Shown: positions 6,955 to 43,423 of the stretch, in pieces
How positions within the stretch are numbered: the stretch's first letter is position 1
Layout of the letters: each line of letters opens with the position of its first letter
IMG/VR virus record: IMGVR_UViG_3300046616_000483
Span: 1-46,181 of that record
Strand: one strand, 5' to 3'
Length of the DNA: 46,181 nucleotides
Origin: a virus
Made by a program: the position numbers and the translations under genes
The notes under the pieces: generated by a model
Databases searched by the model: none
What the model was told of the DNA's origin: nothing
What the model saw: only the letters and a program-made list of their open reading frames with translations

Positions 6955-7230
6955 CTATCTCACGCAGTGGGCATTCGCACTCATCTGGGCTGCCACGTCT
7001 ATGTCAGCAAGACACAGGCCGAAGCGATTAAGTGAGGCGTTGTCAATGACGGGTGGGCTCGTACCCGTCCAGCAATACGAAACGAACACCGTGTCCCCTT
7101 CAATGCGCTCCCTGCGGGGGTTAATGACTCCCGGTACGCCATCGATGACGCACTCAGCGAGTTCGCCCAGAGGCAGATCATTGAAGCCTGTGTGTCCAAA
7201 ACGCTTCAACGCGAGCAGCTGCCGAGTCAT
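6955..7230 (-). CDS. Member E of the five-gene paralogous family
   Basis: A 91-residue protein, first in transcription order of the minus-strand array. ATG 7230 is preceded by a strong Shine-Dalgarno (GGGAGG, about 7 bases away), which overrides the longer upstream frame. It carries all family marks: basic first strand, FNDLPLGELAECVIDG, VFVSYCWTG, PPVIDNASLNRFGL, plus a C-terminal tail (about 16 residues) absent from C and B. The good ribosome binding site suggests this is the best-expressed copy. Function unknown. Confidence 0.62.
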   Translation of the reverse strand: MTRQLLALKRFGHTGFNDLPLGELAECVIDGVPGVINPRRERIEGDTVFVSYCWTGTSPPVIDNASLNRFGLCLADIDVAAQMSANAHCVR

Positions 7231-7571
7231 GGTCAACCTCCCTCGGGCGCCAAGCTGTGGGGAAGCGATACGACTTGGGGCATCGCTATGGAACAGCGTG
7301 CTTACGATGGCACCGGAACTGTGAATAGTTAATAGACCCACGCAGGCGCGCGACGAGCGGCGCGTATGGCTGTGGAGTCACGGTGCGGTGAAGACCCCGG
7401 CCTCACTGACCGCGGCCCACAGGGCGCCGCATGTCGCGCTGTTCAGCGAGAAATCGCGGGTCCTTCCCCGCCGTTCAGGCGAGCGGGGGGCAAGGCCGCA
7501 AAACCCCGCTAGCGTCAATCCTTTTCTTCGGGTTTGCAGTCCCTGCAACCCGGTTCGCACTCGGACATCTC
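7231..7571. other. Divergent intergenic region between member E and the methyltransferase operon
   Basis: About 340 bases between divergently read genes. It must hold promoters for both directions but I cannot place convincing -35/-10 boxes. A C/G-rich hairpin (CCCCGC 7466-7471 with GCGGGG 7483-7488) lies upstream of the methyltransferase. The methyltransferase frame stays open back to ATG 7431, but that translation is Arg/Pro/Gly-rich and unlike protein. Confidence 0.4.
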
Positions 7572-8819
7572 TTGAGCCTTCAGATCGAACAGCGCCCGAT
7601 CGAGGCGCTCATTCCGTTTGCGCGAAACGCGCGCACGCACTCCGATGCGCAGGTCGCGCAGATCGCTGCCAGCATCGTGGAATTCGGCTGGACCAATCCG
7701 GTACTGGTCGATGGCGACAGCGGCATCATCGCGGGCCACGGTCGCCTGCTCGCCGCGCGCCAGCTCAAACTCACGCAGGTGCCAGTGATCGAACTGGCCC
7801 ACCTGAGCCCGGCGCAGAAGCGCGCCTACGTCATTGCCGACAATCGGCTGGCTGAGAACGCAGGCTGGGATGAAGAACTGCTCCGATTGGAACTGGCCGA
7901 GCTTCGCGACGCCGAGTTCGATCTGGACCTGCTTGGTTTCACCGATGCCGAGTTGGAGGACCTGCTCATCGATGACCAGGCCGGGCTGACCGACGACGAC
8001 GAAGTACCTGAACCGACCGAGCACCTCGTATCGCGCCGCGGTGACGTCTGGATCTGCGGTGGTCACAAATTGCTCTGCGGTGATGCCACCAGCGCCGAGG
8101 ACTACGCCGCGTTGCTGGGCGATGAGTTGGTGGATATGACCTTCACTGACCCGCCCTACAATGTCGACTACGCCAACAACCCGAAGGACAAGCTGCGCGG
8201 CAAGCACCGTCCAATCCTCAACGACAACCTGGGTTCGGACTTCGGCACATTCCTGGAAGCTTGGTGCACGCACATGGTGGCGCTGACCAAGGGCGCAATC
8301 TACATCGCGATGTCGTCATCGGAACTGGACCGCCTACAGACCGCATTCCGCGCGGCCGGCGGTCGCTGGTCCACTTTCATCATCTGGGCCAAGAACAAAT
8401 TCACGATGGGCCATGCCGACTACCAGCGGCAGTACGAGCCCATCCTCTACGGCTGGCGCGACGGCAACGACCGCTTCTGGTGCGGCGCGCGCGATCAAGG
8501 CGATGTCTGGTTCATCGACCGCACCAGTAAGAACGACCTGCATCCGACGATGAAGCCGGTCGCGCTGGTAGAACGGGCGATTCGCAATAGCAGCAAAACC
8601 CGCGACCTGGTCCTCGATCCCTTTGGCGGATCGGGCACGACGATGATCGCGGCCGAGAAGACTGGTCGCCGCGCGCGTCTTATCGAGCTGGACCCGAAGT
8701 ACGCCGATGTGATCGTCCGGCGCTGGCAGGATCACACTGGCCAGGCCGCAGTCCGCCAGAGTGATGGCGCGTCATTCGATGATGCCGCACGCGAAACCGA
8801 TATAGCCGGAAGCGAATGA
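7572..8819 (+). CDS. ParB-fused site-specific DNA methyltransferase (N4-cytosine/N6-adenine type)
   Basis: A 415-residue fusion when started at TTG 7572. The N-terminal ParB/Srx domain (about 5-110) has GIIAGHGRLLAARQL with the GxxR box at 55-58 and ADNRLAENAGWDEELLRLEL. The methyltransferase follows with catalytic DPPY at 193-196 and the AdoMet loop DPFGGSGTT at 349-357, the motif IV-then-I order of the beta class. It should methylate an exocyclic amine in phage DNA, probably as protection against host restriction. The upstream ATG 7431 is possible, but the extra 47 residues do not look like protein and the ParB domain starts naturally at SLQIEQRPIEALIPF. Its stop overlaps the cytosine methyltransferase start (ATGA). 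Confidence 0.87.
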   Translation: MSLQIEQRPIEALIPFARNARTHSDAQVAQIAASIVEFGWTNPVLVDGDSGIIAGHGRLLAARQLKLTQVPVIELAHLSPAQKRAYVIADNRLAENAGWDEELLRLELAELRDAEFDLDLLGFTDAELEDLLIDDQAGLTDDDEVPEPTEHLVSRRGDVWICGGHKLLCGDATSAEDYAALLGDELVDMTFTDPPYNVDYANNPKDKLRGKHRPILNDNLGSDFGTFLEAWCTHMVALTKGAIYIAMSSSELDRLQTAFRAAGGRWSTFIIWAKNKFTMGHADYQRQYEPILYGWRDGNDRFWCGARDQGDVWFIDRTSKNDLHPTMKPVALVERAIRNSSKTRDLVLDPFGGSGTTMIAAEKTGRRARLIELDPKYADVIVRRWQDHTGQAAVRQSDGASFDDAARETDIAGSE

Positions 8820-9883
8820 TCCGGCCCGCGTACTACAACGAGATTGATCCCTACCTGTGCGATTGGCTGCGTAATCTGATCGCTGCCGGTCTAATCCCAC
8901 CCGGCGACGTCGATGACCGAGACATCCGATCTGTTTGCGCAGACGACCTGCGCGGCTACCGCCAATGCCACTTTTTCGCCGGCATCGGCGGCTTCGCCTA
9001 CGCCTGCCGACTGGCCGGCTGGCCCGACGATGAAGAAATCTGGACGGGCGGCTTCCCGTGCCAGCCGTTCAGTGTCGCGGGCCGACAGCGCGCGCAGGCG
9101 GATGACCGTCACCTCTGGCCGGAACTGCATCGCCTTATTGCATCGGCGCGACCCGCTCTATTCCTGGGTGAGAACGTGTCTGGTCTCATCCCGCTGGGGC
9201 TCGACGGAGTTTTGTCTGACCTGGAAAGCGAAGGCTACGCCAGCCGGGCGGTTGTTGTTCCAGCTTGTGCCGTCAACGCTCCGCACCGACGCGACCGGGT
9301 CTGGATCGTTGGGCACCGTTTGGCCGACCGGGACGGCGAACGACCCGGAGAAACGCGGCAACTTTGCGGCCGAGCGACGCAATGGTCTGCCGGGCGTAGT
9401 GAAGGCGGTCTGGAGCACGCCCGCGCCAGCGACGGCGCGAAAGGCAGTCCCGGTCAGCGGTTCGGCAGCGGAACCATGTTGCCGCTGCCGGCGCAGGCGG
9501 TGTGGGCGACGCCCACGACGCGGGATCACAAGGACGCATCGAGCATTGGCAGCGCACCGGAGAATGCGCTGCTTGGACGACAAGTCAAACCCTCGCCGGA
9601 CGGCGGATACCTGAATCCGGAATTCGTCTTCTGGCTCATGGGATACCCGCCAGAATTCGTCGCCTGCGCGCCGCCGGCAATGCGATTGTCCCGCAGGTCG
9701 CCGCAGAAATCCTCCGCGCCTTCCGCCTCTGACGCTGCGCCCGTGCGCAGCGCCGGGGTGGATTCCCCCTCAGCCGGCGTCGGCGAAGCCGGCGTAGCGC
9801 GTGTAGTCGTAGCCCTCCGGCCGGACGTACAAATCAATGCGGGCGGGCGCGCACCACAATGCATTGATCACCGCGCTCCCTAA
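8816..9883 (+). CDS. dcm: DNA (cytosine-5) methyltransferase, C-terminal motif X in another frame
   Basis: The uninterrupted frame gives 355 residues with the C5-methyltransferase motifs: I FAGIGG 54-59, IV PCQ with catalytic Cys82, VI ENV 119-121, VIII RRDRVW 158-163, and a target-recognition region ending LNPEFVFWLMGYP. The expected motif X is absent from this frame. A -1 shift near 9650-9690 would give RLRAAGNAIVPQVAAEIL and a stop at 9730-9732, just before a terminator-like hairpin. I infer that the functional end was 9732 and that the remaining codons to 9883 are read-through of foreign frame. Whether this is a sequencing error, an inactivating shift or a recoding event is not decidable here. 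It is coupled to the upstream amino-methyltransferase. Confidence 0.8.
   Translation: MIRPAYYNEIDPYLCDWLRNLIAAGLIPPGDVDDRDIRSVCADDLRGYRQCHFFAGIGGFAYACRLAGWPDDEEIWTGGFPCQPFSVAGRQRAQADDRHLWPELHRLIASARPALFLGENVSGLIPLGLDGVLSDLESEGYASRAVVVPACAVNAPHRRDRVWIVGHRLADRDGERPGETRQLCGRATQWSAGRSEGGLEHARASDGAKGSPGQRFGSGTMLPLPAQAVWATPTTRDHKDASSIGSAPENALLGRQVKPSPDGGYLNPEFVFWLMGYPPEFVACAPPAMRLSRRSPQKSSAPSASDAAPVRSAGVDSPSAGVGEAGVARVVVALRPDVQINAGGRAPQCIDHRAP
9733..9752. terminator. Hairpin between convergent genes
   Basis: Perfect 8-bp stem CGCTGCGC/GCGCAGCG with a 4-base loop, directly after the TGA that ends the motif X frame. No T-run follows, so it may be a bidirectional or factor-assisted terminator. The same hairpin is kept in the second copy at 11116-11135. 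Confidence 0.55.
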
Positions 9884-11115: not shown

Positions 11116-11299
11116 CGCTGCGCTTGCGCGCAGCGCCAGGGAGGCCCCCTCAGTCAGCGTTGGCGAAGCCAGCGTAGCGCGCGTAGTCGTAGCCCTCGGG
11201 TCGGATGTACAAGTCAATGCGGGCGGGCGCGCGTACTACAATGCATTGATCACCGCGCCCCCTGGAGCCAGCGATCCAGTCCTGCGCTTTGGTCAGATC
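11044..11299. repeat. Duplicated segment, copy 2
   Basis: Diverged direct repeat of 9660-9915. Here the methyltransferase tail is the decayed half and the minus-strand 106-residue gene is intact, the mirror image of copy 1. Confidence 0.8.
11116..11135. terminator. Hairpin, second copy
   Basis: The same 8-bp stem as at 9733-9752 (CGCTGCGC/GCGCAGCG) with loop TTGC instead of CCGT. The stem is unchanged while the surrounding sequence diverged, suggesting it matters, perhaps as a terminator between convergent genes. Confidence 0.55.
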
Positions 11300-11470
11300 G
11301 CGTACATACGCGTCGTACTCGACGGCGGTCATGATCTTGATTGAAGTCACGAACACGCGCTCCTCTTCGATGTAGTAGCCGCCGTGCTCGCGCAGCATCG
11401 CGCGCAGACCGGTCGGCTTGCACGAGAATCGAACGTTGACGGGGTAGGGCCTGCAAATCGTGATGGTCAT
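11150..11470 (-). CDS. Small phage protein behind shared leader 1
   Basis: A 106-residue protein without a recognised family. Features: N-terminal MTITICRPYPVNVRFSCKPT, central REHGGYYIEEERVFVTSIKI, and a C-terminal PEGYDYARYAGFAN rich in Tyr. No membrane segment or signal. Start ATG 11470 overlaps the stop of a ten-codon leader reading frame (ATGA), so translation is probably coupled to the leader. A partial decayed copy exists at 9770-9915. Position among phage early accessory genes suggests a non-essential or regulatory role. Confidence 0.65.
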   Translation of the reverse strand: MTITICRPYPVNVRFSCKPTGLRAMLREHGGYYIEEERVFVTSIKIMTAVEYDAYVRDLTKAQDWIAGSRGRGDQCIVVRAPARIDLYIRPEGYDYARYAGFANAD

Positions 11471-11582
11471 GACGCGCTCCGTGGTGGGTGTGGCGTCATG
11501 AACACTTCATTCCCAACGTAAGCCAAGCGGCGAATCGCGATGAATTTTCAGTCAGCGAAAGCCGTTTAAGTGTCGGACAAGA
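11467..11582 (-). promoter_or_regulatory. Shared leader element, copy 1
   Basis: Upstream of the 106-residue gene. Order in gene direction: TGTCCGACA (near 11577), CTTGGCTT, GGAATGAAGTGTTCATG with the ATG at 11499, then a leader frame MTPHPPRSAS whose TGA overlaps the gene's ATG. One of six related elements between here and 14322. Confidence 0.7.
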
Positions 11583-11607
11583 TCAATCATTCTCTTTGCC
11601 ACAACGC

Positions 11608-11627
11608 GGCCGGGCAGTGGCCCGGTC
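11608..11627. terminator. Hairpin after the DUF3489 gene
   Basis: GGCCGGGC (11608-11615) pairs with GCCCGGTC (11620-11627) around a 4-base loop, with one G-T pair. It lies just downstream of the minus-strand DUF3489 stop. No T-run follows, so terminator function is uncertain. Confidence 0.4.
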
Positions 11628-11637
11628 GCGCGCTGTA

Positions 11638-12261
11638 TCACTCTTCTTCGTCGGCGGCGGCCTCGGTCGTCGCTGTTTCCTCGGTCTTGATCCGGTAGAC
11701 CCGGTCCTCCTTTCCGCTCTTCTCATTGATCACTTCGTAACCCTTCTTCTTCAGGGTGCCGGCAAAGAATCCACGCACCGAGTGCTGCTGCCAGTCGGTT
11801 GCCGCCATCACGTCCTTGATGGTCGCGCCCTGTGGGCGCATCAGCAGGGCCACGACTTGGTCGAGGCGGGTCTCTTTGCGCTTCGTCGGCGGCGCTGCGG
11901 CCTCCAGGCTTGCATCGTCAGTGTCGGCGCCGCCGCTGTCTTGCTCGACAGAATCATCCACGTTGCCCGAATCGTCGGCCTCATCGACATCCGCCGCATC
12001 GGTATCGGTGCTGTCGTCATCGCCAGAAGCGACCACATCGTTGTCGCCGCTTGCCGGCGGGATCTGGTCGACCGCCTCGTAGCCGGCGGCGGTAAGGGCG
12101 TAGCCCGGACCGTCAGTGGCAATCAGGTCCTCGCGCAGCAGGCCGCGCACCACTGCCGCGCGTGCGCCACCTTTGAGGTTGTCGGGATACTGCTCGATGC
12201 GACCGCCGGTCTGGACGGCGAGGACGAGGAGCGCGCGCTGGGTTTCGGTGATATGCGTCAT
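11638..12261 (-). CDS. DUF3489 domain protein
   Basis: A 207-residue protein in three parts. Residues 1-65 form a winged-helix-like N-terminal domain (ITETQRALLVLAVQTGGRIE, ALTAAGYEAV). A long Asp/Ser/Ala-rich acidic linker (about 70-125) probably is disordered. The C-terminal DUF3489 domain (about 130-195) shows RLDQVVALLMRPQGATIKDV, then TDWQQHSVRGFFAGTLKKK. DUF3489 proteins are common phage-linked putative transcription factors. The AAGGAAA Shine-Dalgarno sits before ATG 12261. Unlike its neighbours it lacks the shared leader, so it may be the regulator rather than a member of that group, which is inference. Confidence 0.8.
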   Translation of the reverse strand: MTHITETQRALLVLAVQTGGRIEQYPDNLKGGARAAVVRGLLREDLIATDGPGYALTAAGYEAVDQIPPASGDNDVVASGDDDSTDTDAADVDEADDSGNVDDSVEQDSGGADTDDASLEAAAPPTKRKETRLDQVVALLMRPQGATIKDVMAATDWQQHSVRGFFAGTLKKKGYEVINEKSGKEDRVYRIKTEETATTEAAADEEE

Positions 12262-12327
12262 GGAAATTTCCTTTTTATTAGGTTGGGATTTGAGCGCGCC
12301 CGCACTGACGTGGAGCGCGCGGGTAAA

Positions 12328-12558
12328 TCACTCGGCGAGCACTTCTTCGATGGCTCGGTATGGATTGAGCTCGCCCTTGGCGATCGCGAGCATCACGTCG
12401 TCGTTAAAGGTGTTGAGGACGAGATAGGCCCTGCGTTGAAGTTCGCGCTGCGCAGCGGCGTGCCAGTCGTTGATGCTGAGCAGCTGGTTCAGTGCGTTGC
12501 GGTTGTGCTTCTTCATGCCGCCGATGTAATCCTTAAACGCTTCGGTCTGGTCTTTCAT
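12328..12558 (-). CDS. Small helical protein, paralogue of the gene at 12741-13001
   Basis: A 76-residue, predicted all-helical protein. NRNALNQLLSINDWHAAAQR, ELQRRAYLVLNTFNDDVM and AIEEVLAE align across their full length with NRASFAELIALEDWREVAMM, ELQRRAARALRAIPSDLLEM and AMTEVFAE of the next gene. No family recognised, no export signal. ATG 12558 overlaps the TGA of a 12-codon leader frame (ATGA), part of shared leader 2. The pair therefore arose by duplication with its leader or was assembled from modules sharing the leader. Confidence 0.65.
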   Translation of the reverse strand: MKDQTEAFKDYIGGMKKHNRNALNQLLSINDWHAAAQRELQRRAYLVLNTFNDDVMLAIAKGELNPYRAIEEVLAE

Positions 12559-12678
12559 GCTGGGCCTCCGTGGCCGTGTTGGTGTGGGGACATGAACGCT
12601 TCCTTCCCCGACGAAGCCAAGCGAATCAGTCGATAAAGAACGCTCGTTCTCGGTTGCAGACAGGTGCCGGACAGAAAC
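12555..12678 (-). promoter_or_regulatory. Shared leader element, copy 2
   Basis: In gene direction: CTGTCCGGCACCTGTC, the palindrome AGAACGAGCGTTCT (12637-12650), CTTGGCTTCGTC, and GGAAGGAAGCGTTCATG with the leader ATG at 12593. The leader frame MSPHQHGHGGPA ends in a TGA overlapping the gene's ATG. The most complete copy together with copy 3. Confidence 0.75.
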
Positions 12679-12740
12679 GGCGTGCAGAGACGAAGACGCC
12701 CCCGCACAGCGGAGGCGTTCAGTCGATTCGCAGCAGGGAA

Positions 12741-13001
12741 TTAGCGTGGTGCTGTGCGGAACTCGGCAAATACTTCGGTCATCGCCTGCCGAGTATCGAT
12801 CAAGTCGAAGGCCATCATTTCCAGCAGATCAGAGGGAATGGCCCGAAGCGCTCGGGCGGCTCGACGTTGCAGTTCCATCATCGCAACCTCCCGCCAATCT
12901 TCCAGGGCGATGAGTTCGGCGAACGATGCTCTATTTGCTTGCCTGACGCTACGTAGACACATCTTCAGGTGTTCCAAGCTCGTGTCATTACCGTCGTGCA
13001 T
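12741..13001 (-). CDS. Small helical protein, paralogue of the gene at 12328-12558
   Basis: An 86-residue helical protein sharing the DWREVAMMELQRRA core and the AMTEVFAE end with its neighbour, plus a ten-residue C-terminal extension (FRTAPR). ATG 13001 is the start giving the paralogue alignment. Behind shared leader 3, where the usual leader ATG is replaced by ATT. No known family. Its upstream region faces the divergent gene at 13245, so the two leaders lie back to back. Confidence 0.65.
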   Translation of the reverse strand: MHDGNDTSLEHLKMCLRSVRQANRASFAELIALEDWREVAMMELQRRAARALRAIPSDLLEMMAFDLIDTRQAMTEVFAEFRTAPR

Positions 13002-13122
13002 TCTGAGTCTCCGGGCTCAAATTGGTGTGTGGCAATGAACACTTCCTTCCGCGACGAAGCCAAGCGGTTGTGCCAAGAAAGAACGCTCGTTCTCGGGTTC
13101 GGACAGGTGTCGGACAGCTTCC
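13002..13122 (-). promoter_or_regulatory. Shared leader element, copy 3
   Basis: In gene direction: AGCTGTCCGACACCTGTC, the palindrome AGAACGAGCGTTCT (13080-13093), CTTGGCTTCGTCGC, GGAAGGAAGTGTTCATT. The leader start codon is ATT instead of ATG, and the frame (IATHQFEPGDSEC) runs across the gene start instead of stopping at it. Confidence 0.7.
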
Positions 13123-13159
13123 GCGCTGGACCGAAATATTTCTTTCGCCATCGCGGCGT

Positions 13160-13244
13160 GGACTGCGACCTAGTGCGCTTGGCTTCCCGTCCGAAGCACG
13201 CGTTCATGCCGTCGCCGCACCAACGCGGTTTACGGAGAGAGAGT
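13160..13244 (+). promoter_or_regulatory. Shared leader element, copy 4
   Basis: Plus-strand copy: GCTTGGCTTC, then GCGTTCATGCCGTCGCCGCA with ATG at 13206. Here the leader frame MPSPHQRGLRRESV is in frame with the gene, so it could add 13 residues to the protein. The upstream palindrome is not recognisable. Confidence 0.6.
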
Positions 13245-13772
13245 GTGAGCGAATTGCTACAGCCGGCGCTGGCCGGAGACTTGCAACGGTGCGCGGGACG
13301 ACTGGATTTTCTGGTCAACCATGCGCGCGTAACGTTGGTCGCGGACTGCGAGTTCGAAACCCTGACGACGCGGCGGTGCGAGGCACTGTGCGCCGTGCTG
13401 TCGCATTGCGTGTCATCCCACCGGTCGCAGCGCATCCGGCCGGACACGCTACGCGAACTGCTCGACGGCGCGGATGCTGAGCTGGGCGCATGGGAGCGTC
13501 ACATCCTGCCGCGCCACAACACCGCCAGACGCCGACCCACTGGACCCTTGGCGCCGGTGGAACATGCCTTTCGGGACGTGCTGGCGATGATTGACCGCTA
13601 TCTCGACGGGCTAGACCCGGCCGAGCCGGCGCATGCCATCGCGCGCGCCATCGAGCGGGTGGAGCGGTTGATGAGCTGCTATCCGCGCGATGATGAGTTT
13701 CAGCACGGACTGGCGCATGCGATCAGCGGCTTGGAGCAAGCCAAGGCCGCCGCCGAATTTCAAACGGCCTGA
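13245..13772 (+). CDS. Phage accessory protein, paralogue of the gene at 14323-14862
   Basis: A 175-residue protein from GTG 13245, with GGAGAG just upstream. ATG 13206 in the shared leader would give a longer form. The C-terminal half, FRDVLAMIDRYLDGLDPAEP followed by HGLAHAISGLEQAKAAAEF, matches LRWLLAVIERYFDGLEPEFS and VLRNAISSIENAILAAM of the other gene. The N-terminal half has a Cys-rich segment (TRRCEALCAVLSHCVSSH). No domain recognised. Predicted helical and cytoplasmic. It is transcribed away from the 12741-13001 gene. Confidence 0.65.
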   Translation: MSELLQPALAGDLQRCAGRLDFLVNHARVTLVADCEFETLTTRRCEALCAVLSHCVSSHRSQRIRPDTLRELLDGADAELGAWERHILPRHNTARRRPTGPLAPVEHAFRDVLAMIDRYLDGLDPAEPAHAIARAIERVERLMSCYPRDDEFQHGLAHAISGLEQAKAAAEFQTA

Positions 13773-13787
13773 TGCAAAGGCCGGCGT

Positions 13788-13905
13788 TGAAGCTGTCCGA
13801 CACCTGTCAGGTTAAGAATGTTGTTCCGAAAGCTCTTGGCTTTTCGCCGGAAGGAAGCGTTCATGTCCTCGCCGTAACGACGCGGCAATACCAGGGAGAA
13901 CAACG
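13788..13905 (+). promoter_or_regulatory. Shared leader element, copy 5
   Basis: Plus-strand copy: AGCTGTCCGACACCTGTC (identical over this stretch to copy 3), a weakened GAAT-GTT-GTTC version of the palindrome, CTTGGCTTTTCGCC, GGAAGGAAGCGTTCATG with ATG at 13862. The leader frame is only MSSP before TAA. Confidence 0.7.
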
Positions 13906-14154
13906 ATGGCGAACATGTCTTACTGCCGCTTCCAGAACACCGCGCAGCATTTGGAGGATTGCCAGTGGGTCTTGGAGGACATGGCCGGCGGCGACCCGGA
14001 ACGGCTGAGCGAAGAGGAATTGCAGGCGGCGAAGCGATTGGGGGCGACCTGCGTGGGTATCGTGCAATTGCTGGCCGAACGCGGCTCGCTGGCCTTTGAG
14101 CCCGACATGGACCTGGATTCGGTGCTGAACAAATTAAACGAAGCGGCGGGCTGA
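13906..14154 (+). CDS. Small conserved phage protein (MSYCRFxNT type)
   Basis: An 82-residue acidic protein. The opening MANMSYCRFQNTAQHLEDC is a pattern I know from many small uncharacterised phage and prophage proteins. The rest (LSEEELQAAKRLGATCVGIV) is helical. GGGAG precedes ATG 13906. It sits behind shared leader 5 and is followed by a strong terminator, so it forms its own transcription unit. Function unknown. Confidence 0.7.
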   Translation: MANMSYCRFQNTAQHLEDCQWVLEDMAGGDPERLSEEELQAAKRLGATCVGIVQLLAERGSLAFEPDMDLDSVLNKLNEAAG

Positions 14155-14170
14155 TCCGATGAGAGGCCAC

Positions 14171-14203
14171 ACCCCAGCGCCCTTCGGGCGCTGGGGTATT
14201 TCC
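14171..14203 (+). terminator. Rho-independent terminator
   Basis: ACCCCAGCGCCC (14171-14182) pairs with GGGCGCTGGGGT (14186-14197) in a near-perfect 12-bp stem with a three-base loop, followed by ATTTCCTCTTCT. It closes the transcript of the gene at 13906-14154. Confidence 0.8.
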
Positions 14204-14261
14204 TCTTCTACTTCGAAAGATCTAGCGTTATCGAAGGAGGCAGAGAGTCGTTCAAAACTGC

Positions 14262-14322
14262 TTGATATTGCGGCAGAAGGAAGCGTTCATGCCGTCGCCG
14301 CACCGATGCGGCCTACCAAGGA
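14262..14322 (+). promoter_or_regulatory. Shared leader element, copy 6
   Basis: Plus-strand copy with the downstream half only: GAAGGAAGCGTTCATGCCGT with ATG at 14289. The 21-codon leader frame (MPSPHRCGLPRNVHERATSY and one Arg) overlaps the gene start out of frame and stops at 14354. Confidence 0.65.
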
Positions 14323-14862
14323 ATGTCCATGAACGAGCAACATCTTATCGCTGACGCCGAACTTCGCAGCCTCGGGGATTATCTGGAATGCATACTGCGG
14401 TCCAGCTACCCGGTTCCCGAAGAACCGAACCAGAAACTGAGCATGATCGCCTGTTTTGGACTGGCCAGTGCGCTGGCCAAGCGCACCGAAACCTACCGCA
14501 CCGCGCGATTGCCTACGGACGTGGTTGTTCATTTGGTGGAGGCCTGTCGGCAGGAATTGGTGCCGCTGGCGCATGCGATTGATCAGGCCAAGGGTTGGTC
14601 GGTTAAGCGGCGGGTACCGAGCGAGATGGGCGAGGACGAAATGACGCTGCGCTGGCTGCTTGCCGTCATCGAGCGGTATTTTGATGGACTGGAGCCTGAG
14701 TTCTCGGCACTGCCTGTGCATCAGCTCAACCGAGTGTTACGCAATGCGCGCCTGATGCAAGTGTGGGATGTCGCGGATCATAACTATCCGCGCGTGCTGC
14801 GCAACGCCATCAGCTCTATTGAGAATGCAATCCTCGCAGCGATGTGCGCGCCTCGTAACTGA
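14323..14862 (+). CDS. Phage accessory protein, paralogue of the gene at 13245-13772
   Basis: A 179-residue helical protein. The C-terminal half shares IERYFDGLEPE and AISSIENAILAA with the paralogue; the N-terminal half (DYLECILRSSYPVPEEPNQK) is different. A second ATG lies two codons in, closer to a spacing of 8 bases from AAGGAA. No catalytic motif, membrane segment or signal peptide. Last gene before the late operon and followed by a hairpin terminator. Function unknown. Confidence 0.65.
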   Translation: MSMNEQHLIADAELRSLGDYLECILRSSYPVPEEPNQKLSMIACFGLASALAKRTETYRTARLPTDVVVHLVEACRQELVPLAHAIDQAKGWSVKRRVPSEMGEDEMTLRWLLAVIERYFDGLEPEFSALPVHQLNRVLRNARLMQVWDVADHNYPRVLRNAISSIENAILAAMCAPRN

Positions 14863-14882
14863 CCGCTGCTGCGCGAGAGCGC

Positions 14883-14913
14883 ACACTCTTGCTCCCAATG
14901 GGAGCAAGGGTGT
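14883..14913 (+). terminator. Hairpin terminator before the packaging genes
   Basis: CTTGCTCCC (14888-14896) pairs perfectly with GGGAGCAAG (14900-14908) around AAT. The stem extends outwards as ACAC/GTGT after one mismatch and is followed by TCCCTCTTCCC. It separates the accessory genes from the late operon, so the late promoter should lie near 14910-14942. Confidence 0.65.
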
Positions 14914-14942
14914 TCCCTCTTCCCTTCACCTGATCTGCGCCG

Positions 14943-15539
14943 ATGGCCGGCGGTCGCGGAGGCTGGCCCGAATCGAATCCTGACGTGGGAATCTCCATCC
15001 GTGCTTACGGCCGCCATCGCGGCGTGTCCGACACCGCCGTGCGCAAGGCCATTGCCACCGGCCGCATCACCGCCGAGGCGGACGGCACCATCAACGCGGT
15101 GCGCGCCGATGCCGAATGGGCCGCCAGTACCCGCGCGCCAGACCCGCCGCCCCTGGTGGCGACAACGCGCCCGACGCGGGCGCGCGCGGCCAACGGACCG
15201 CTCGGAGACGACCTCGGCGCCGTAGCGCCGGCCAGTGCGGCGGGTGGCGGCAATACCTACGCGCAGGCCCGCACCGCCAATGAGGTGCTGAAGGCCCAGC
15301 ACCACAAGCTGCGCATCGCCCAGCTCAAAGGCGAACTGATCGACCGGTCGCAGGTGATGGCGCAGGTCTTTGCGCTGGCGCGCTCCGAACGCGACGCCTG
15401 GTTGAACTGGCCGGCACGCATCAGCTCGATGCTCGCCGCCGAACTGAACATTGATCCGCATGTCGTGCATGTCGCGCTGGAGCGCGAGGTGCGACAGCAC
15501 TTGACCGAACTCGGCGAATTCAACGCTCGACTGGATTGA
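14943..15539 (+). CDS. Terminase small subunit (Nu1-like)
   Basis: A 198-residue protein opening the late operon. The N-terminal MerR/Nu1-like winged helix (IRAYGRHRGVSDTAVRKAIA) would bind the packaging site. An Ala/Pro-rich linker follows, then the helical segment ANEVLKAQHHKLRIAQLKGE and ERDAWLNWPARISSMLAAEL, typical of small terminase subunits of the lambda and elements-of-external-origin type. It should recruit the large subunit to concatemeric DNA. The stop at 15539 lies three bases before the TTG start of the large subunit. Confidence 0.82.
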   Translation: MAGGRGGWPESNPDVGISIRAYGRHRGVSDTAVRKAIATGRITAEADGTINAVRADAEWAASTRAPDPPPLVATTRPTRARAANGPLGDDLGAVAPASAAGGGNTYAQARTANEVLKAQHHKLRIAQLKGELIDRSQVMAQVFALARSERDAWLNWPARISSMLAAELNIDPHVVHVALEREVRQHLTELGEFNARLD

Positions 15540-33198: not shown

Positions 33199-34010
33199 GC
33201 TTTGAACAACTGGAACGATCGACTGCCGCGGGCAATCCGCGGCGGCTGTACGAGTTTGTGCGCGGCGCTCAGCGCTGGCGCTACACCGGCGGCGATCGAG
33301 ACTTCGCACTCGACACGCAGGTCTATCGGGCCGCCGCCATCAGCGACGATGGCATCCGTCAATCGGGCCACACCGCCAGCGACATGCTGACAATCACCGC
33401 GCCCGGCGACTTCGAAGTGGCACGGCTTTATCGCGGCTTGCCACCATCGAGCGAGGTCGCTGTTTTGGTCCGCGATGTCCATGAGGGCGACGGCGATGCA
33501 CGGGTGGTCTGGATGGGCCGGATCGCGGGCGTCAATCGGTCTTCGCTGGAAAGCACCGAGGTGCGGTGCCAATCGCTCGACGCCGCGCTCGGGCAGCCGG
33601 GCTTGCGATTGGCGTGGACACGCGGTTGCCCGTACAGCCTCTACGACCGCAATTGCCGGGTCAATCCCGAGTCGTTCCGCGTGCCGGCGTCGCTGACGAC
33701 GCTCAACGGCAACGTCATCACCGCCGGCATCTTCAGCCAATACCCGGATGGCTGGTTCGCGGGTGGATTTCTGGCGTGGGATCTCGGCGAGGCCGGTTTG
33801 GAGCGTCGCGGCATCCGCGCGCATACCGGCGAGCGGCTGACGCTGCTCGGAGCGGGCGACGGTTTGCGGGTCGGCCAAGCCGTCGTCGCCTATCCCGGCT
33901 GCGGCCGGTCCATCGCGATCTGCAGCACCAAGTTCAACAACGCGCCGAACTACGGCGGTGTTCCCGGCTTGCCCGGCAAATCGCCGTTCGATGGCAGCCC
34001 TCTCTTCTAA
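33195..34010 (+). CDS. Tail hub protein, BR0599 / DUF2163 family
   Basis: A 271-residue protein with the DUF2163 N-terminal half (RRLYEFVRGAQRWRYTGGDR, then ITAPGDFEVARLYRGLPPSS) and the BR0599 C-terminal half. The Cys-containing conserved parts are AWTRGCPYSLYDRNCRVNPE and CSTKFNNAPNYGGVPGLPGK. This family forms part of the tail hub in siphoviruses and gene transfer agents, and its Cys residues may coordinate metal or an iron-sulfur cluster as in lambda gpL; that last point is inference. Confidence 0.85.
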   Translation: MSFEQLERSTAAGNPRRLYEFVRGAQRWRYTGGDRDFALDTQVYRAAAISDDGIRQSGHTASDMLTITAPGDFEVARLYRGLPPSSEVAVLVRDVHEGDGDARVVWMGRIAGVNRSSLESTEVRCQSLDAALGQPGLRLAWTRGCPYSLYDRNCRVNPESFRVPASLTTLNGNVITAGIFSQYPDGWFAGGFLAWDLGEAGLERRGIRAHTGERLTLLGAGDGLRVGQAVVAYPGCGRSIAICSTKFNNAPNYGGVPGLPGKSPFDGSPLF

Positions 34011-38183: not shown

Positions 38184-41100
38184 TCACTTTGTCCGTACCG
38201 CGCAGGTAGTGCAGAAAATCTGCGCAGGAAATTCTTCGGTCGGAGAAATTTGCGTATTGTGCGATGACATGACTTCGATCCTTTGAGGGCCGTTAGCGGG
38301 AACGTCGTCAATTCGGTAGTTCATTATCAGGTATGCCTCTTCATCTAGTAGCCAAGTAATGTAGTTGAAAGCCTCGGCAAGATTTTTCGGATCATTATTT
38401 GACACTCCCTTGATCGAATTTGGCTTGATGTCCGATCTGTCATCGAATCGCCACTCGCCCTGCTTTATCCATACAACATTGTTCTTGCATTCACGAGCCT
38501 TTCGCTCCGCCTCGTCTTGCGTTTTGAAGCATTGTGCCCCAGGCGCATTCTCAGGCATGTTGTATCCCATGCCCTGGTAGATTGAAGCAACCCCGACACA
38601 GCCTCGGTCAAGCTGACGATTAATAGCTGAACTAAAAGGGCCGTAGCGGTCTGTGAACTCTTTGCGGGTGTAGGTTCTGCTGGTGCCGGGCGCCGGCTTG
38701 TCAATTACGGGCGGCTGCAGACCAGACGGATCTGTGAAGGTGTTCGAATTATTGAATGCATAGGCGTAGGTACTTGATCCCCCGTTCAGGCCTATAGGAT
38801 CGCTCTGTAAGTAGCGGCCTACGGCCGGATCGTAATCGCGGTAGTAGTTGTAAACAAATCCGCTGCCAGCGTCGAATCGCTGCCCCGGAAACCGCAGGTT
38901 GAAAACGAATGCGGTGCCGTCCAGGTCGGGGTCCTGGTTAGGAACGTCCTTGCCGAACGCTTCGCCCTTCCCGCTCCAGGTCCAGATCGCGACATTGCGG
39001 GCGGGATCGATGATCACTCGCGGCGTACCGAGGTGATCGGGCTCGATGTATTTCGCAGACTGTGTGGTGCCGCTTCCGACCAGCAGACCGACCGGTACAT
39101 CGCCTAGCCAGACCGCCTGTTGCCTCGCTACCCCGGTTGCCGTGTAGTCGCCGATCCAGTTCCCGGCCTCGTCATACAGCGTGTACGTGTCGATCGTACC
39201 GTCCGGCTTGGTGATGGCCACGCGCTCTCCAATAGCGTTGTAGCGGTAACCCGCTTTGACCATGCCATTGAGCTTGACTTGACTCAGCCGATCATTAGGA
39301 CTGTAGCTAAGCTCCTTCGCCGTCCCCCCAATGCTGACCGTGTTGCCAATCGAGTCATAACTGCGATTAACGGTGCCAACGCGAGTAAGGCGATGCTGGG
39401 TATCTGGATAGGTATAGATCGTCGTTACCGCGCCTTGCAGGACGTTGAGGCGGTTACCGGTGCCGTCGTAGCCGTAAGTCTCCAGCGGCGTGCTAGTCGC
39501 GCCGTCTCGCGTGATCTTCAGCCTGCCCAGTGTGTCGTAGTCGTACTTGGCTTGGAACGCGCTTTGCAGGCCATCCTTTAACTCGGTCAGATTGCCGACT
39601 TCGTTGTAGCCGTACCCCAACGACAGGCCGCCACTGGCGCTGTCGAGGACGGTCTTGGCGCGGTAGTTGAGGTCGTAGGTTCGGGCTAATGTGCGCCCGT
39701 TGCCATAGTCCCAACCCCTGACCGGTCCAAAAGGCTCATAGGATGCGTTGGTCAGCAGCACCGAACGCGCGCTGCCGTTGGGCTTAACGCCAATCTCCTT
39801 GATGCGCGACCTAGTATCGCGAACGTAATCCACAATTGTGCCATCCGGATACGTCAGGCTTTTAAGCTGACCCGCATTGCTGTAAGCGAATCGGAGGGTG
39901 AAGCTCTTGCCGGCTAATGTCTGGATCTTGCGGACGATTTGGCCGAAACGGTCGTAGCAGTACAGCAGTTCCGTACCGTCCGTTCGCATTGCGGTAACGC
40001 GACCGGAAGCGAAGGTTTCGCCCACGGTACAAGCTGGGTTGACAGTGTCGTAGATGTACTCGACGTCAGCGCTTCCCGTGCCATAGGAGACCGTCTTGGG
40101 CCGCCCTAGCGCATCGTAAGTATACGTGTGTGCGGTGGAATCATTGGCGTCCTTCTTCGTCGCCAAGAGACCGGCTGCGTTATAGGTGTAATCCGTAACA
40201 CCCGTATCCGGACTGGTCAGCTTCGTCTGATCTCCGAACCCGTTGTACACGTAAGCCGTGGATAACCCCTTGGGATCCACTACCCCGGCTACCCGATCAA
40301 ATGGGTCGTATTCCAATCGGGTTTCGACAGCCAGCCCACCCACATCCTGCAAGGTCTTCTTGAGACGGCCTAGCCCATCGAAGGTCTGATCGGTTTTGCG
40401 CCCCAGAGCATCGGTCGTTCGGTCGGGATTGCCGCCGACGTCATAGCGGAAACTGGTTGCATTTTGGAACGCATCCTTCAAAGCCTCCAACTGACCCAGC
40501 GCATTGAATGTACGCGACAGGGTGCGCCTGACGGTTGTGCCGTCGGCCTTGACGTCCTCCTGCTTGCGGTTGCCTGCGCTGTCCAGGGTGTAGTGGATAA
40601 CATCTCCGAGGTTGTCGGTGATGTCCGTCAGCCGCAATGCGGTGTCGTAGGTGAACCGAGTGTACGTTCCGTCTGGCAGAGTGATCTTTTTAACCGAACC
40701 ACTGGGGGTGTACTCGAACCGTGTGATTAGGTCATCGGTCTCTACGGAATCATTTGCACCACGGACCTTCTGGGCGGATAGGCGGCCCCGCAGGTCATAC
40801 TCCGAGTTCGTGACGACGCCATTGGTGTCCTTCGACGCAAGGACTCGACCAGCGCCGTCATACGCCAGATACTCCAAGGTCTGACCCATCGGGAAGTTGG
40901 TTTTCCACGGATCTCCCTTTCGGTAAGGGCAGTTCCCGCCGGGCGTCGCGCAGCCCGGCGCGTCACTGACGTAGTAGTCATAACCGGTTATATCGGCGAC
41001 ATCGGCGCGGGGACCGTCCACGGACTTCAATGCACCCACGGTGGCGCAGGTCGAGCCCGGGGCGGGCAAATCAGCCTCTTCGCAGTAGGTCTGCGTGGTG

Positions 41101-43034
41101 ATTCGCTGGTCGCCCGTCTTCGCATCTCTACGAACGACCGAGGTCAATTGTCGGCGGGTGTTGTAAGTGAAGTCGGTCTGAGCGACTAGATTGCTCGTCC
41201 CATCATTGGCTTGAATCCTTATCGGCCGCGACGTCCCGGGTTCAAATGTGGTGACGATAGTCCGCAACACCGCATTGTTCAGCAGGGTCTGAACGGTTTC
41301 CGAGTTGCTGTTGTATTTCCGGATCGTGGTCAAGCCGGTGTTGTCGGTCTCGGTAACGATGTCGTCGTTGCCGGAATAGGTTGTCGAGGTGACCAAGCCA
41401 CCCACGGTCTCTTCGCGCACAGGCCGTCGCCAGACAATTGGCTCGAAGTCCGTGACCTCCACTCGGCCGCTCGGAAAGGTCACCGTGGTCTGGGTGGGTA
41501 GATAGGCATATGTATACTTGGTCGGCCCGTTCGTCGATTCGATCAGGCGGCCTAAGTCGTCGTATTGATACTCGCGAGGGTGCTCGCCACTTTCTAGAAT
41601 CGAGTTGATTAGCGACGTGCCGGGCTTGTAGCTGTATTTGAACAATTCACCACTGTCATCCGCCACCCGATCGAGGTTGCCATCGGGCGTGTACTCGTAG
41701 GTGATCAGCCGCCCATCGGGCATCAGCGCTGCCGAAACCATGAGCGTGCGCTCGCTGTCGGCGTACTCATAAATATACTTGACCGAGCGGCCTAGGTACT
41801 CCGCGCGCTCCATACGGCCATGGGTATCGTATGTAAATCGGACCTCTTGGTTGCCGTTGTACGTGATGCTTATAGGTTTCTCGGCGTTTGCTTCAGCGGG
41901 GTCACGGAACTCGATCGACATGCCCGGAAACTCGACCCGGACTGCATACTTGGAATTCGCGTAGTACTTCATCGCGGTAGCCGAGCGATCATCGGAGCTG
42001 CGATACCGTTGGGCGTTGTCAACAAAACCAGACGATCGCGTCAGATCGATCTGTTTCCCATTGGGGGTCGTTAGAACAAGAGACTGATTGCCATCGCTTG
42101 ACATCATCAAGCGGTAGTCAAAGGGGCCACGCCAACCGCGGCCGAACGTGCCGCCTACATCGGTGGAGTCGTACTGACGAATCAAATCCAACGGGCCATA
42201 GCCACTCGCGTCAGTTACGGTCTCATGCTTTGAGCCTCTGGAGATATCGCAGGGGTTGCCCTTGATCGGCGAGCAGTGATTAGGCTGCCCGACTAGCTTG
42301 GCCGTGTTCCGACTGTGTACGGTCCACTGATCCTGAGTGTAGTAGTCACCATACGGGTCGTGAGCTGGTCCGGTATGCAGGATATCTGGGGGGTCCCGCA
42401 AACCCGTGAATGGCTGTGGGTCTCGAAAGAAATTTCCGTCGAGGTTTTTGACGTAGTCGTGATTGGTGATGCGTTCGCGTGAAACCATTTCAATAATAAG
42501 GTAATCATAGTCCCAATAAGGCCTGCAGGTGGGATCGTCTTCTTCGAAGACGTAGACTTTCGTTCGCCGAATCTGGGAGTCAACGGGATTGGGGTAATTG
42601 CTCCAGCCCTCATCCTCGAAAATAGGGGGGCAAGCACGCCGCGCCGTGCCCCAATTATTGGTCATGCTTTGCTTGAAAGCTGCGACGGCTTCCGATTCAC
42701 TGAGAAACCATTTCACGACGCCATCGACAATCGAGTTATACTGAACTGGACCCGGAGTCGTTGCGAAGTGAGCACCGGTGTACTTGTACTCGGCGCCTGA
42801 GCCATTCAACGCTTTGATGAGCTTGATGTTCTTAAGCGTCGCATTTACAGGCGAGGATGCCCACAAGTATTGCTCGGCGGCACTTCGACTGGTGAACTCC
42901 TTGTTCTCCAACTCATGGCCGGAGTTGTCGTAGATCGTCAGCTTCCAGTTCCAAGGCGTAATTGGGTCCTGTGCCCATGCCGAGTTGAAGCCTGCAATGA
43001 GAAACAGCCCGAAAATAAGCTGCCAGAGTTTCAT
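38184..43034 (-). CDS. Secreted Rhs/YD-repeat protein with variable C-terminal tip
   Basis: A 1,616-residue protein. ATG 43034 is chosen because GGAAGG precedes it and a clear Sec signal peptide follows (MKLWQLIFGLFLIAGFNSAW, cleavage after AWA). A DUF6531-type segment is visible (CDISRGSKHETVTDASGYGP, FGRGWRGPFDYRL). Then come many YD repeats (YDALGRPK, YDTLGRLK, YNAIGERV) that should build a hollow shell. The core closes with YDPAVGRYLQSDPIGLNGG and DPSGL at about 1435-1439. The 177-residue tip after DPSGL is unlike the core: it has five Cys (RGCVGVASIYQGMG, AQCF, REC, CTTC) and no family I know. Composition is less G+C-rich than the phage genes, suggesting separate acquisition. Confidence 0.88.
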   Translation of the reverse strand: MKLWQLIFGLFLIAGFNSAWAQDPITPWNWKLTIYDNSGHELENKEFTSRSAAEQYLWASSPVNATLKNIKLIKALNGSGAEYKYTGAHFATTPGPVQYNSIVDGVVKWFLSESEAVAAFKQSMTNNWGTARRACPPIFEDEGWSNYPNPVDSQIRRTKVYVFEEDDPTCRPYWDYDYLIIEMVSRERITNHDYVKNLDGNFFRDPQPFTGLRDPPDILHTGPAHDPYGDYYTQDQWTVHSRNTAKLVGQPNHCSPIKGNPCDISRGSKHETVTDASGYGPLDLIRQYDSTDVGGTFGRGWRGPFDYRLMMSSDGNQSLVLTTPNGKQIDLTRSSGFVDNAQRYRSSDDRSATAMKYYANSKYAVRVEFPGMSIEFRDPAEANAEKPISITYNGNQEVRFTYDTHGRMERAEYLGRSVKYIYEYADSERTLMVSAALMPDGRLITYEYTPDGNLDRVADDSGELFKYSYKPGTSLINSILESGEHPREYQYDDLGRLIESTNGPTKYTYAYLPTQTTVTFPSGRVEVTDFEPIVWRRPVREETVGGLVTSTTYSGNDDIVTETDNTGLTTIRKYNSNSETVQTLLNNAVLRTIVTTFEPGTSRPIRIQANDGTSNLVAQTDFTYNTRRQLTSVVRRDAKTGDQRITTQTYCEEADLPAPGSTCATVGALKSVDGPRADVADITGYDYYVSDAPGCATPGGNCPYRKGDPWKTNFPMGQTLEYLAYDGAGRVLASKDTNGVVTNSEYDLRGRLSAQKVRGANDSVETDDLITRFEYTPSGSVKKITLPDGTYTRFTYDTALRLTDITDNLGDVIHYTLDSAGNRKQEDVKADGTTVRRTLSRTFNALGQLEALKDAFQNATSFRYDVGGNPDRTTDALGRKTDQTFDGLGRLKKTLQDVGGLAVETRLEYDPFDRVAGVVDPKGLSTAYVYNGFGDQTKLTSPDTGVTDYTYNAAGLLATKKDANDSTAHTYTYDALGRPKTVSYGTGSADVEYIYDTVNPACTVGETFASGRVTAMRTDGTELLYCYDRFGQIVRKIQTLAGKSFTLRFAYSNAGQLKSLTYPDGTIVDYVRDTRSRIKEIGVKPNGSARSVLLTNASYEPFGPVRGWDYGNGRTLARTYDLNYRAKTVLDSASGGLSLGYGYNEVGNLTELKDGLQSAFQAKYDYDTLGRLKITRDGATSTPLETYGYDGTGNRLNVLQGAVTTIYTYPDTQHRLTRVGTVNRSYDSIGNTVSIGGTAKELSYSPNDRLSQVKLNGMVKAGYRYNAIGERVAITKPDGTIDTYTLYDEAGNWIGDYTATGVARQQAVWLGDVPVGLLVGSGTTQSAKYIEPDHLGTPRVIIDPARNVAIWTWSGKGEAFGKDVPNQDPDLDGTAFVFNLRFPGQRFDAGSGFVYNYYRDYDPAVGRYLQSDPIGLNGGSSTYAYAFNNSNTFTDPSGLQPPVIDKPAPGTSRTYTRKEFTDRYGPFSSAINRQLDRGCVGVASIYQGMGYNMPENAPGAQCFKTQDEAERKARECKNNVVWIKQGEWRFDDRSDIKPNSIKGVSNNDPKNLAEAFNYITWLLDEEAYLIMNYRIDDVPANGPQRIEVMSSHNTQISPTEEFPAQIFCTTCAVRTK

Positions 43035-43423
43035 AAGCCTTCCTTTATCGGAGCGAACCATTCGCTCGCTCCAGTGGTTGAATGTCGCACTGTTCAAGAG
43101 CAGCTCCCACGTGAAATTTGTCGATAGGAACCGCGATAAGAATTCGGCTGTAGCCTGCTTCACCGATGCAAAGCATTGCCACGCTTTGTATGGAGGCGCG
43201 ACGGTTGTTTGTGATGGTGCGGAAACCGCCGACGCATGAGGGCGTTCGGCGTCCCGTTGGAGTAGTGGCGCCTCGCGCGCCCAAAAATTCCCTGTACTTG
43301 TCATGCTTCGTCCTTGGCGGTCAGCGGCTGCAGCTGAAACGATTGCAAACCAAGCGCTTCCCGCGCCTTATCCGAGATAATTTCCTACATTACTGTGACA
43401 TGCAACGGTCTCCAGCCGTGAGA
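43035..43423. other. Region upstream of the Rhs-type gene
   Basis: About 390 bases. The Rhs frame stays open to 43304 but the extra 90 codons contain no signal or domain and precede the true signal peptide, so they are not counted. The promoter of the locus should be here; no clear boxes were found. Confidence 0.4.

Follow-up and report, generated by a model that had tools for sequence, protein, structure and literature searches.

In the 46,181-nucleotide viral sequence analyzed here (the window), six small genes of a Lysobacter-type phage are each headed by the same rigid 30-base element, which also heads more than 30 unrelated small-gene families in more than 100 other viral contigs and prophages. 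Judged from its sequence, this element is probably (at a rough probability of 0.6) a DNA-level transcription-start element, representing an undescribed class of rigidly spaced promoters with operator features of their own.

The element has the form CTTGgCTTc-N6-gAAnGAAGCGTTCATg, of which the window contains six copies, compared with none in 100 shuffles. The pattern GGAAGGAAGCGTTCATG yields six matches at up to 3 mismatches versus 0.19 expected, with six reached in 0 of 100 shuffles, and CTTGNNNTN8AANNAAGNGTTCAT (up to 2 mismatches) retrieves precisely the same six sites at an expectation of 0.00. Three matches of the positional weight matrix (PWM) were deleted by hand as false, namely window position 7198 and one each in two relatives, in apparent portal coding sequence. 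The motif CTTGGCTT is present in five of the six window copies, the sixth reading CTTGATAT. All copies point to a gene start 29-43 nt downstream, which bears out the earlier note in its claim that six genes on both strands have a common upstream sequence. The features of the region are as follows.

11150..11470, minus strand: family F3 gene, 106 aa (phrog_21303, E 8.5e-6)
11498..11527, minus strand: element copy 1, CTTGGCTTACGTTGGGAATGAAGTGTTCAT, heading the 11470 gene (fuller-pattern search and PWM scan)
11638..12261, minus strand: gene of a DUF3489 protein with two predicted winged-helix domains (PF11994, E 2.3e-24; AlphaFold model, fold matches)
12328..12558, minus strand: family F2 gene, 76 aa (family clustering)
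12592..12621, minus strand: element copy 2, CTTGGCTTCGTCGGGGAAGGAAGCGTTCAT, heading the 12558 gene (fuller-pattern search)
12659..12674, minus strand: CTGTC-N6-CTGTC direct repeat, 11-base period, upstream of element copy 2
12681..12708, minus strand: terminator-like hairpin that follows the 13001 gene and immediately precedes the repeat of the next unit
12741..13001, minus strand: family F2 gene, 86 aa (family clustering)
13035..13064, minus strand: element copy 3, followed by T (ATT, without a start codon), upstream of the 13001 gene
13102..13117, minus strand: CTGTC-N6-CTGTC direct repeat upstream of element copy 3
13178..13207, plus strand: element copy 4, heading the 13245 gene; its right half, GAAGCACGCGTTCAT, is the most diverged
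13245..13772, plus strand: family F1 gene, 175 aa, GTG start (family clustering)
13793..13808, plus strand: CTGTC-N6-CTGTC direct repeat upstream of element copy 5
13835..13864, plus strand: element copy 5, heading the 13906 gene (fuller-pattern search)
13906..14154, plus strand: family F0 gene, 82 aa, MANMSYCRF (phrog_8760)
14171..14207, plus strand: terminator-like hairpin with a T-rich tail, following the F0 gene
14261..14290, plus strand: element copy 6, heading the 14329 gene, with the left half CTTGATATT
14329..14862, plus strand: family F1 gene, 177 aa (family clustering)

This divergent array of small accessory genes adjoins the terminase genes. The start of the last plus-strand gene is better placed at 14329 than at 14323, since the Shine-Dalgarno spacing and the homologous N-termini fit the former; Shine-Dalgarno-like sequences of the genes' own are found in most copies.

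Beyond the window, we compared two sets of copies, 99 from 14 related phages (the Lysobacter set) and 326 from a wider set. Among sampled genomes of one betaproteobacterial order, up to 20 of 250 carry the element, as do 10 of 395 from the Lysobacter family. The sole carrier among 50,697 named phage records is the Acidithiobacillus phage AcaML1 (JX507079), with the element at four places, unmarked in the record's annotation. AcaML1 has the same gene order (methylases, small genes, DUF3489, terminase) but differs in the right half of the element (GAACAGCGCGTTCATA) and in having fewer copies. A plasmid search with the wide consensus gave no convincing match. One-mismatch matches reading CCTGCCCGACCAGCGCGTTCAT, which recur singly in the betaproteobacterial genomes, look like unrelated sequence.

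Could the repetition reflect plain duplication of a gene together with its upstream region, without any selected element? The six window genes fall into four families, two of which occur twice, and the element subtypes follow gene families. However, the same 30 bases precede 32 gene clusters without detectable homology among the 326 elements, and in the window hhalign relates only F0 to F1, with no relation detected for other family pairs, so that this explanation is barely credible. The element is also better kept than what comes after it, in agreement with the earlier proposals that the leader is more conserved than its cargo and that it forms a transferable cassette, the latter being supported for the element itself. 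Being common to unrelated families and better conserved than the downstream sequence, it is therefore regarded as a reusable expression module.

The two halves of the element are rigidly arranged. Wherever a right half was accompanied by a left half, the two were the same distance apart (312 of 312 cases); 4 right halves lacking a partner resemble chance matches in coding sequence, and the Lysobacter set holds no good copy with any other half spacing. In the proposed promoter, CTTGgCTT would be the -35 contact and GCGTTCAT the -10 region, with a transcription start at the purine of column 36, ~7 bases further downstream. If column 36 is taken as the start, TTG is conserved at 100/98/96% at -35 and GTTCAT at 98-100% at -12..-7, with a 17-base spacer, in a set for which A and T of columns 28-29 were required. 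Around the putative start, the initiator-like Y35 R36 Y37 reaches 0.92/0.82/0.96 in the AT-filtered set; the full YRY is found at 0.80 at column 36, compared with at most 0.57, and mostly ~0.1, at any other column. Columns -6..-4 are A/T-rich, located where an UP element would be, and from the previous gene to the gene no further block is equally conserved. The element thus has the fixed -35/-10 spacing and, at the putative +1, the initiator purine that are general to bacterial promoters. Terminator-like hairpins follow 52 of 98 element genes, compared with 2 in shuffles and 0 inside genes, so that about half of the genes have a putative terminator of their own, as moron-type genes do. Taken together, the TTG/17/GTTCAT/initiator geometry and the terminator-like hairpins make a transcription-start element most likely, each gene being its own unit. 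Element, gene and terminator would then form an independent unit in the divergent array, and unrelated genes would join one regulon through carrying the same promoter.

This promoter would not be of a standard type. A sigma-70 scan (TTGACA - 16-18 - TATAAT) of positions 11400-14950 called no promoter, and GTTCAT is a poor sigma-70 -10 (3/6 match, without the -11 A); we therefore infer a dedicated non-standard factor. By inspection, neither sigma-54 (TGGC-N-TTGC) nor the sigma-32 spacing fits. A tyrosine-recombinase core site is not favoured either: the 6-base middle differs among copies and the wide class lacks inverted arms.

Within the promoter reading, the "leader ATG" of the earlier note would lie inside the promoter and be untranslated. 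That note had proposed a translated leader peptide from which ribosomes couple to the gene start. Its details were correct as read: two leaders, MTPHPPRSAS and MSPHQHGHGGPA, end on the ATGA of their genes, MSSP has four codons, the 13001 copy has ATT, and the 13245 leader is in frame. Many copies carry the Shine-Dalgarno-like GGAAGGAAG five bases before the ATG, and in 24 of 99 cases the leader stops no more than 20 nt from the start of the gene. The ATGA overlaps, however, arise mechanically wherever a +2 frame meets a gene whose first bases are ATGA, and 28 of the 99 leaders run into the gene out of frame. Most of the variation in the putative start codon is at the third base (165 ATG, 24 ATA, 9 ATC and 1 ATT in a set filtered to keep AT, from which seven sites were excluded, their one GTG lying in coding sequence). 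ATG occurs in only 111 of the 326 copies of the wider set, and GTG and TTG in 0. Column 18, within the Shine-Dalgarno, is variable. The synonymous fraction of leader codons (0.27) is close to that of random sequence (0.29) and far from that of real genes (0.57), all three frames relative to the gene occur (modulo 3, 43/25/24 and 121/104/98), and leader lengths range from 4 codons to 100 or more. Coupling of translation through the leader ATG is thus highly improbable. Caution is warranted in similar cases, since an ATG that is conserved and follows a purine-rich stretch may belong to a promoter instead of being a start codon.

A transcription start near the CTTGG block would put the element inside the RNA, a counterpoint to the promoter reading. 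The element would then belong to a structured 5' UTR in which CTTGGCTTC pairs with GAAnGAAGCG and GUUCAUG can pair with the gene-start region, translation being controlled by an RNA switch, an sRNA or an RNA-binding protein. Single-sequence folds of many Lysobacter copies give a CGCTT/AAGCG hairpin together with GUUCAUG-CAUGAAC pairing. There is also a GC stem, GCCGC-loop-GCGGC or GGCC-ANGGA-GGCC, that precedes or overlaps the Shine-Dalgarno. However, the first hairpin is without covariation, its pairing being that expected for independent columns, and its loop never changes in length; columns 19-21 of the wider class read AGC instead of GAA while CTT is invariant, which breaks the stem; and the second stem shows no significant covariation. 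We consider this explanation unlikely. An Rfam search gave no match, and hence no membership in a described RNA family. The GUUCAUG-gene start pairing was rejected: CAUG is self-complementary, and the bases after the gene ATG vary, but TTCAT does not. The RsmA/CsrA motif ANGGA is found in the minus-class hairpin and is not general.

The same bases may be read as an operator that is not itself a promoter and is bound by a regulator of the phage, for instance a repressor or an activator recognizing the dyad GAAC-N5-GTTC. The sequence of the wide class, GAACAGCGCGTTC, is nearly palindromic; a second palindrome, GAACGNNCGTTC, lies upstream in 21 of the 99 Lysobacter copies; and the inverted arm GAAGCCAAG accompanies 70/163 internal wide-class elements versus 5/163 first or other ones. 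Nevertheless, the GAAC half varies while the GTTC half is unchanged, and the -35-like spacing is combined with an initiator-like YRY at the matching distance, which makes an operator alone improbable.

An additional signal is seen upstream of the promoter-like element in the Lysobacter phages. In the window, the CTGTC-N6-CTGTC pair is confined to three element copies (12674, 13117 and 13793), and in the 99 Lysobacter-set copies 53 of 57 CTGTC pairs are spaced by 11; a reversed-sequence control was disregarded, CTGTC being identical backwards. The PhoB box, with the consensus CTGTCAT-N4-CTGTCAT (PMC3511308), likewise consists of CTGTC direct repeats with an 11-base period. In contrast to it, the repeat is missing from the consensus of the wider element class, and its position relative to the proposed start is unlike that of a normal Pho box, which overlaps the -35 (PMC3511308). 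This upstream repeat suggests that the Lysobacter phages may have a second input via an OmpR/PhoB-type activator.

A candidate for the factor acting on the element is encoded within the element arrays themselves. DUF3489 is a predicted tandem winged-helix protein (AlphaFold model, fold matches), whose gene in the window has no element copy of its own. The gene is present in 12 of the 14 related phages, the two without it being contig fragments, and at 94 of 124 element loci versus 0 of 18 control loci; it occurs in 15 of 20 element-bearing genomes and in 26 of 250 genomes overall. This co-occurrence is inflated, because the DUF3489 gene is often itself behind an element. By inspection, there is no visible correspondence between the DUF3489 type and the element variant at columns 19-21, and DUF3489 may be a marker of phage lineage only. 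What acts on the element would be DUF3489 or some other factor, of phage or host origin. A more specific model, in which DUF3489 reads a dedicated temperate-phage promoter class by replacing normal -10 recognition, and the element serves as a control tag for dozens of unrelated accessory genes in proteobacterial prophages, is put forward tentatively, as a speculation that could well be wrong.

Morons are small accessory genes that lie among phage backbone genes as independent units, with their own promoter and terminator. The genes described here are likewise small and accessory and would be independent units, about half of them with putative terminators of their own; however, classical morons have unrelated individual promoters, whereas here one promoter-like element is common to many unrelated genes. 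The earlier statement that no system of this form has been described was too strong, as the SAS/ESAS of cluster K and EF actinophages are of a similar kind. The closest known kind is the SAS/ESAS of cluster K mycobacteriophages, in which a short conserved non-coding repeat precedes many small non-structural genes of different families, and the ESAS, a proposed promoter, has -35/-10-like hexamers 17-18 bp apart and an inverted repeat (PMC3203893, PMC11373665); motifs similar to SAS occur in Microbacterium cluster EF phages (PMC7302621). The present element is likewise repeated before genes of different families, but its sequence is unrelated. The SAS coincides with the ribosome binding site, at 3-7 bp from the start codon, and is nearly restricted to a single orientation in one phage cluster, whereas the ATG of the present element is 24-43 nt upstream, and the element occupies both arms of a divergent array and many phage groups of Proteobacteria. 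Compared with the SigA-like hexamers of SAS/ESAS, the element has TTG and the 17-bp spacing, but its -10, GTTCAT, is not sigma-70-like. The 13-bp SAS sequence GGGATAGGAGCCC, found near start codons, has one 2-mismatch match in the window, which is at chance level.

Through the element, a likely regulon can be delineated from sequence alone, since the element marks arrays of small genes that are nearly all uncharacterised. As bait, it can serve to collect accessory genes, for instance candidates for host takeover or anti-defence, and the question of how these arrays are switched on becomes directly testable in a laboratory lysogen.

A divergent array of small genes lies between the methylases and the terminase-side genes of the 46,181-base window, an IMG/VR virus record, and six of these genes are headed by one element. 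The flanking landmarks are:

7.4-9.9 kb: methylases
7431-9883, plus strand: fusion of ParB-N with an N6/N4 methylase, followed directly by a C5 methylase
15.5 kb onward: terminase, portal, head protease and major head protein genes

The element is best described locally as CTTGgCTTc-N6-gAAnGAAGCGTTCAT, and a search with a pattern of this form found exactly six sites in the window and none in 100 shuffles. The coordinates and leader details given for these copies in the earlier note were correct on re-check. With column 0 set at the C of CTTGG, the supposed leader start codon occupies columns 28-30. Elsewhere in the window, ARAGORN called a tRNA-Ile (gat), real or spurious, inside the late-gene region (33287-33377, minus strand), and the far end of the phage holds a 1706-aa open frame (38184-43304, minus strand) matching phrog_10385, of unknown function.

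With thirteen relatives sampled from IMG/VR, a set of 14 phages was scanned by a position-weight matrix, yielding 102 sites and none in reversed sequence; three sites were judged false and taken out, leaving 99 copies. The array of every phage has two arms pointing apart, one made up mainly of gene families F3, F5, F2 and F4 and the other of F1 and F0. Between these families, which were split by BLAST clustering, profile comparison detected no relation except F0-F1 (E 5e-6, 40 columns). One relative, L097, carries an intact element at 9375 (minus strand) before an F4-like gene that is cut off by a stop after MNIELFTTIAQ (11 codons), adjoining an intact F4 copy, and at 11199 (plus strand) a shortened element in which CGCTTGGCTTCTGCTTGGAATGAA runs into unrelated sequence, suggesting a recombination or deletion point within the element. 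The element occurs in 10 of 395 genomes of the Lysobacter family, in several copies per genome, and when each species was represented by a single genome, the scan gave six contigs, two of which, from Lysobacter species, hold true copies.

Relaxed patterns revealed many further phages and then a second, larger class of the form CTTGGCTTC-N6-GAACAGCGCGTTCAT[A/C/G], matched by at least 120 stretches. Within the order of one betaproteobacterium, up to 20 of the 250 genomes sampled match this wide class, many as clusters (reversed control, 0); a few lone matches with one mismatch there are probably spurious. The 50,697 named phage records gave no match but the three entries of Acidithiobacillus phage AcaML1, at four places each; two DNA methylases adjoin the AcaML1 array, in the same place as the methylase pair of the window. 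The genes behind the 326 elements gathered form 32 clusters, most commonly DUF3489-like (77), DUF6900 (67) and a family of 122-aa proteins that matches nothing in Pfam (54); when ten cluster representatives were tested, DUF6900 alone had a Pfam name.

The earlier note had proposed that the element supplies a Shine-Dalgarno sequence and an ATG whose short leader peptide is translationally coupled to the gene. Variation in a start codon should preserve NTG; instead, AT is preserved while changes fall on the third base (165 ATG, 24 ATA, 9 ATC and 1 ATT in a tally that demanded AT, the seven excluded sites holding no true GTG or TTG). The wider set (n=326) has 111 ATG, 89 ATC, 84 ATA and 37 CTA. 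Single leader-codon differences between nearest relatives are 27% synonymous versus 29% for random placement, and the identical test on real genes gives 57% versus 24%. Leader frames relative to the gene are spread over all three values, out-of-frame leaders ending from 31 nt before to more than 200 nt after the gene start, and the supposed Shine-Dalgarno sequence varies at column 18, in its middle. Together these observations contradict coupling as a conserved function, although single leader copies could nonetheless be translated.

Both halves of the element always occur together at one spacing in the wide class (312/312), and the Lysobacter class has no good copy with a different spacing. 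Were the halves instead the arms of an RNA hairpin, its six-base loop, if unconstrained, should allow length changes, but the spacing is fixed. The proposed stem shows no covariation, and the wide class cannot form it: columns 19-21 there read AGC rather than GAA, with the partner CTT unchanged. A separate GGCC-ANGGA-GGCC hairpin, an RsmA/CsrA-like motif, covers the Shine-Dalgarno sequence at 12555-12590 (minus strand) of the window and in most F2/F4 copies.

For this rigid DNA element, we infer a promoter nature from its sequence. Column 36 is the sole place with a near-universal pyrimidine-purine-pyrimidine (0.80; next best column 0.57, mostly about 0.1); as the first transcribed base, it would place TTG at -35 to -33 and GTTCAT at -12 to -7. 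The columns immediately 5' of TTG are A/T-rich. A sigma-70 scan did not recognise the element sites. Terminator-like hairpins follow 52 of 98 element genes (shuffles, 2; within genes, 0), and the element genes look like separate units. One further feature concerns the junctions between them:

Wide-class arrays (e.g. L278, L282 and L289): CTTGGCTTC preceded by an inverted arm GAAGCCAAG, almost exclusively in elements following another element gene

This arm precedes 70 of 163 elements lying directly after another element gene, versus 5 of 163 others, as though the 3' hairpin of the previous unit shared one arm with the next putative promoter.

In the Lysobacter phages, [CT]TGTC-N6-[CT]TGTC, a possible additional input, lies upstream of 53 of 99 elements; the period is 11 bases in 53 of the 57 repeat pairs, which resembles that of the Pho box (PMC3511308). 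The window has only three such pairs, all at three elements; the wide class has no such conserved repeat columns. F3 elements (the 11565-11585 region of the window and F3 homologues) carry a TGTCCGACACCTTAACGG-type sequence in place of the CTGTC pair.

A DUF3489 gene is located inside or beside the arrays of 12 of the 14 phages, the remaining two being contig fragments. It occurs at 94 of 124 element loci versus 0 of 18 control loci, and in 15 of 20 element-bearing genomes (26 of all 250 in that set), a co-occurrence that arises in part because the gene itself sits behind the element. AlphaFold models two domains with confidence (block pLDDT above 90), and in both a two-stranded wing comes after the helices. 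Structural alignment matches the first domain to winged-helix domains found in RuvB and in regulators of MarR type (Z about 8-9.6) and the second to winged helices including that of NiaR (Z 8), values near 8 being common; Foldseek E-values are weak (best 0.02). Given these winged-helix-like predicted domains, DUF3489 is a plausible candidate DNA-binding regulator. In the literature searched, a single paper mentions DUF3489, and only in passing.

Our literature search did not find the wide-class core string in such a context. Cluster K mycobacteriophages possess SAS/ESAS, a 13-bp start-proximal sequence with an upstream inverted repeat (PMC3203893), later interpreted as holding SigA-like promoters (PMC11373665), and Microbacterium cluster EF phages have similar motifs (PMC7302621). 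The present element has a like logic but a different sequence, position and -10, and the SAS/ESAS of cluster K mycobacteriophages are its nearest known kind.
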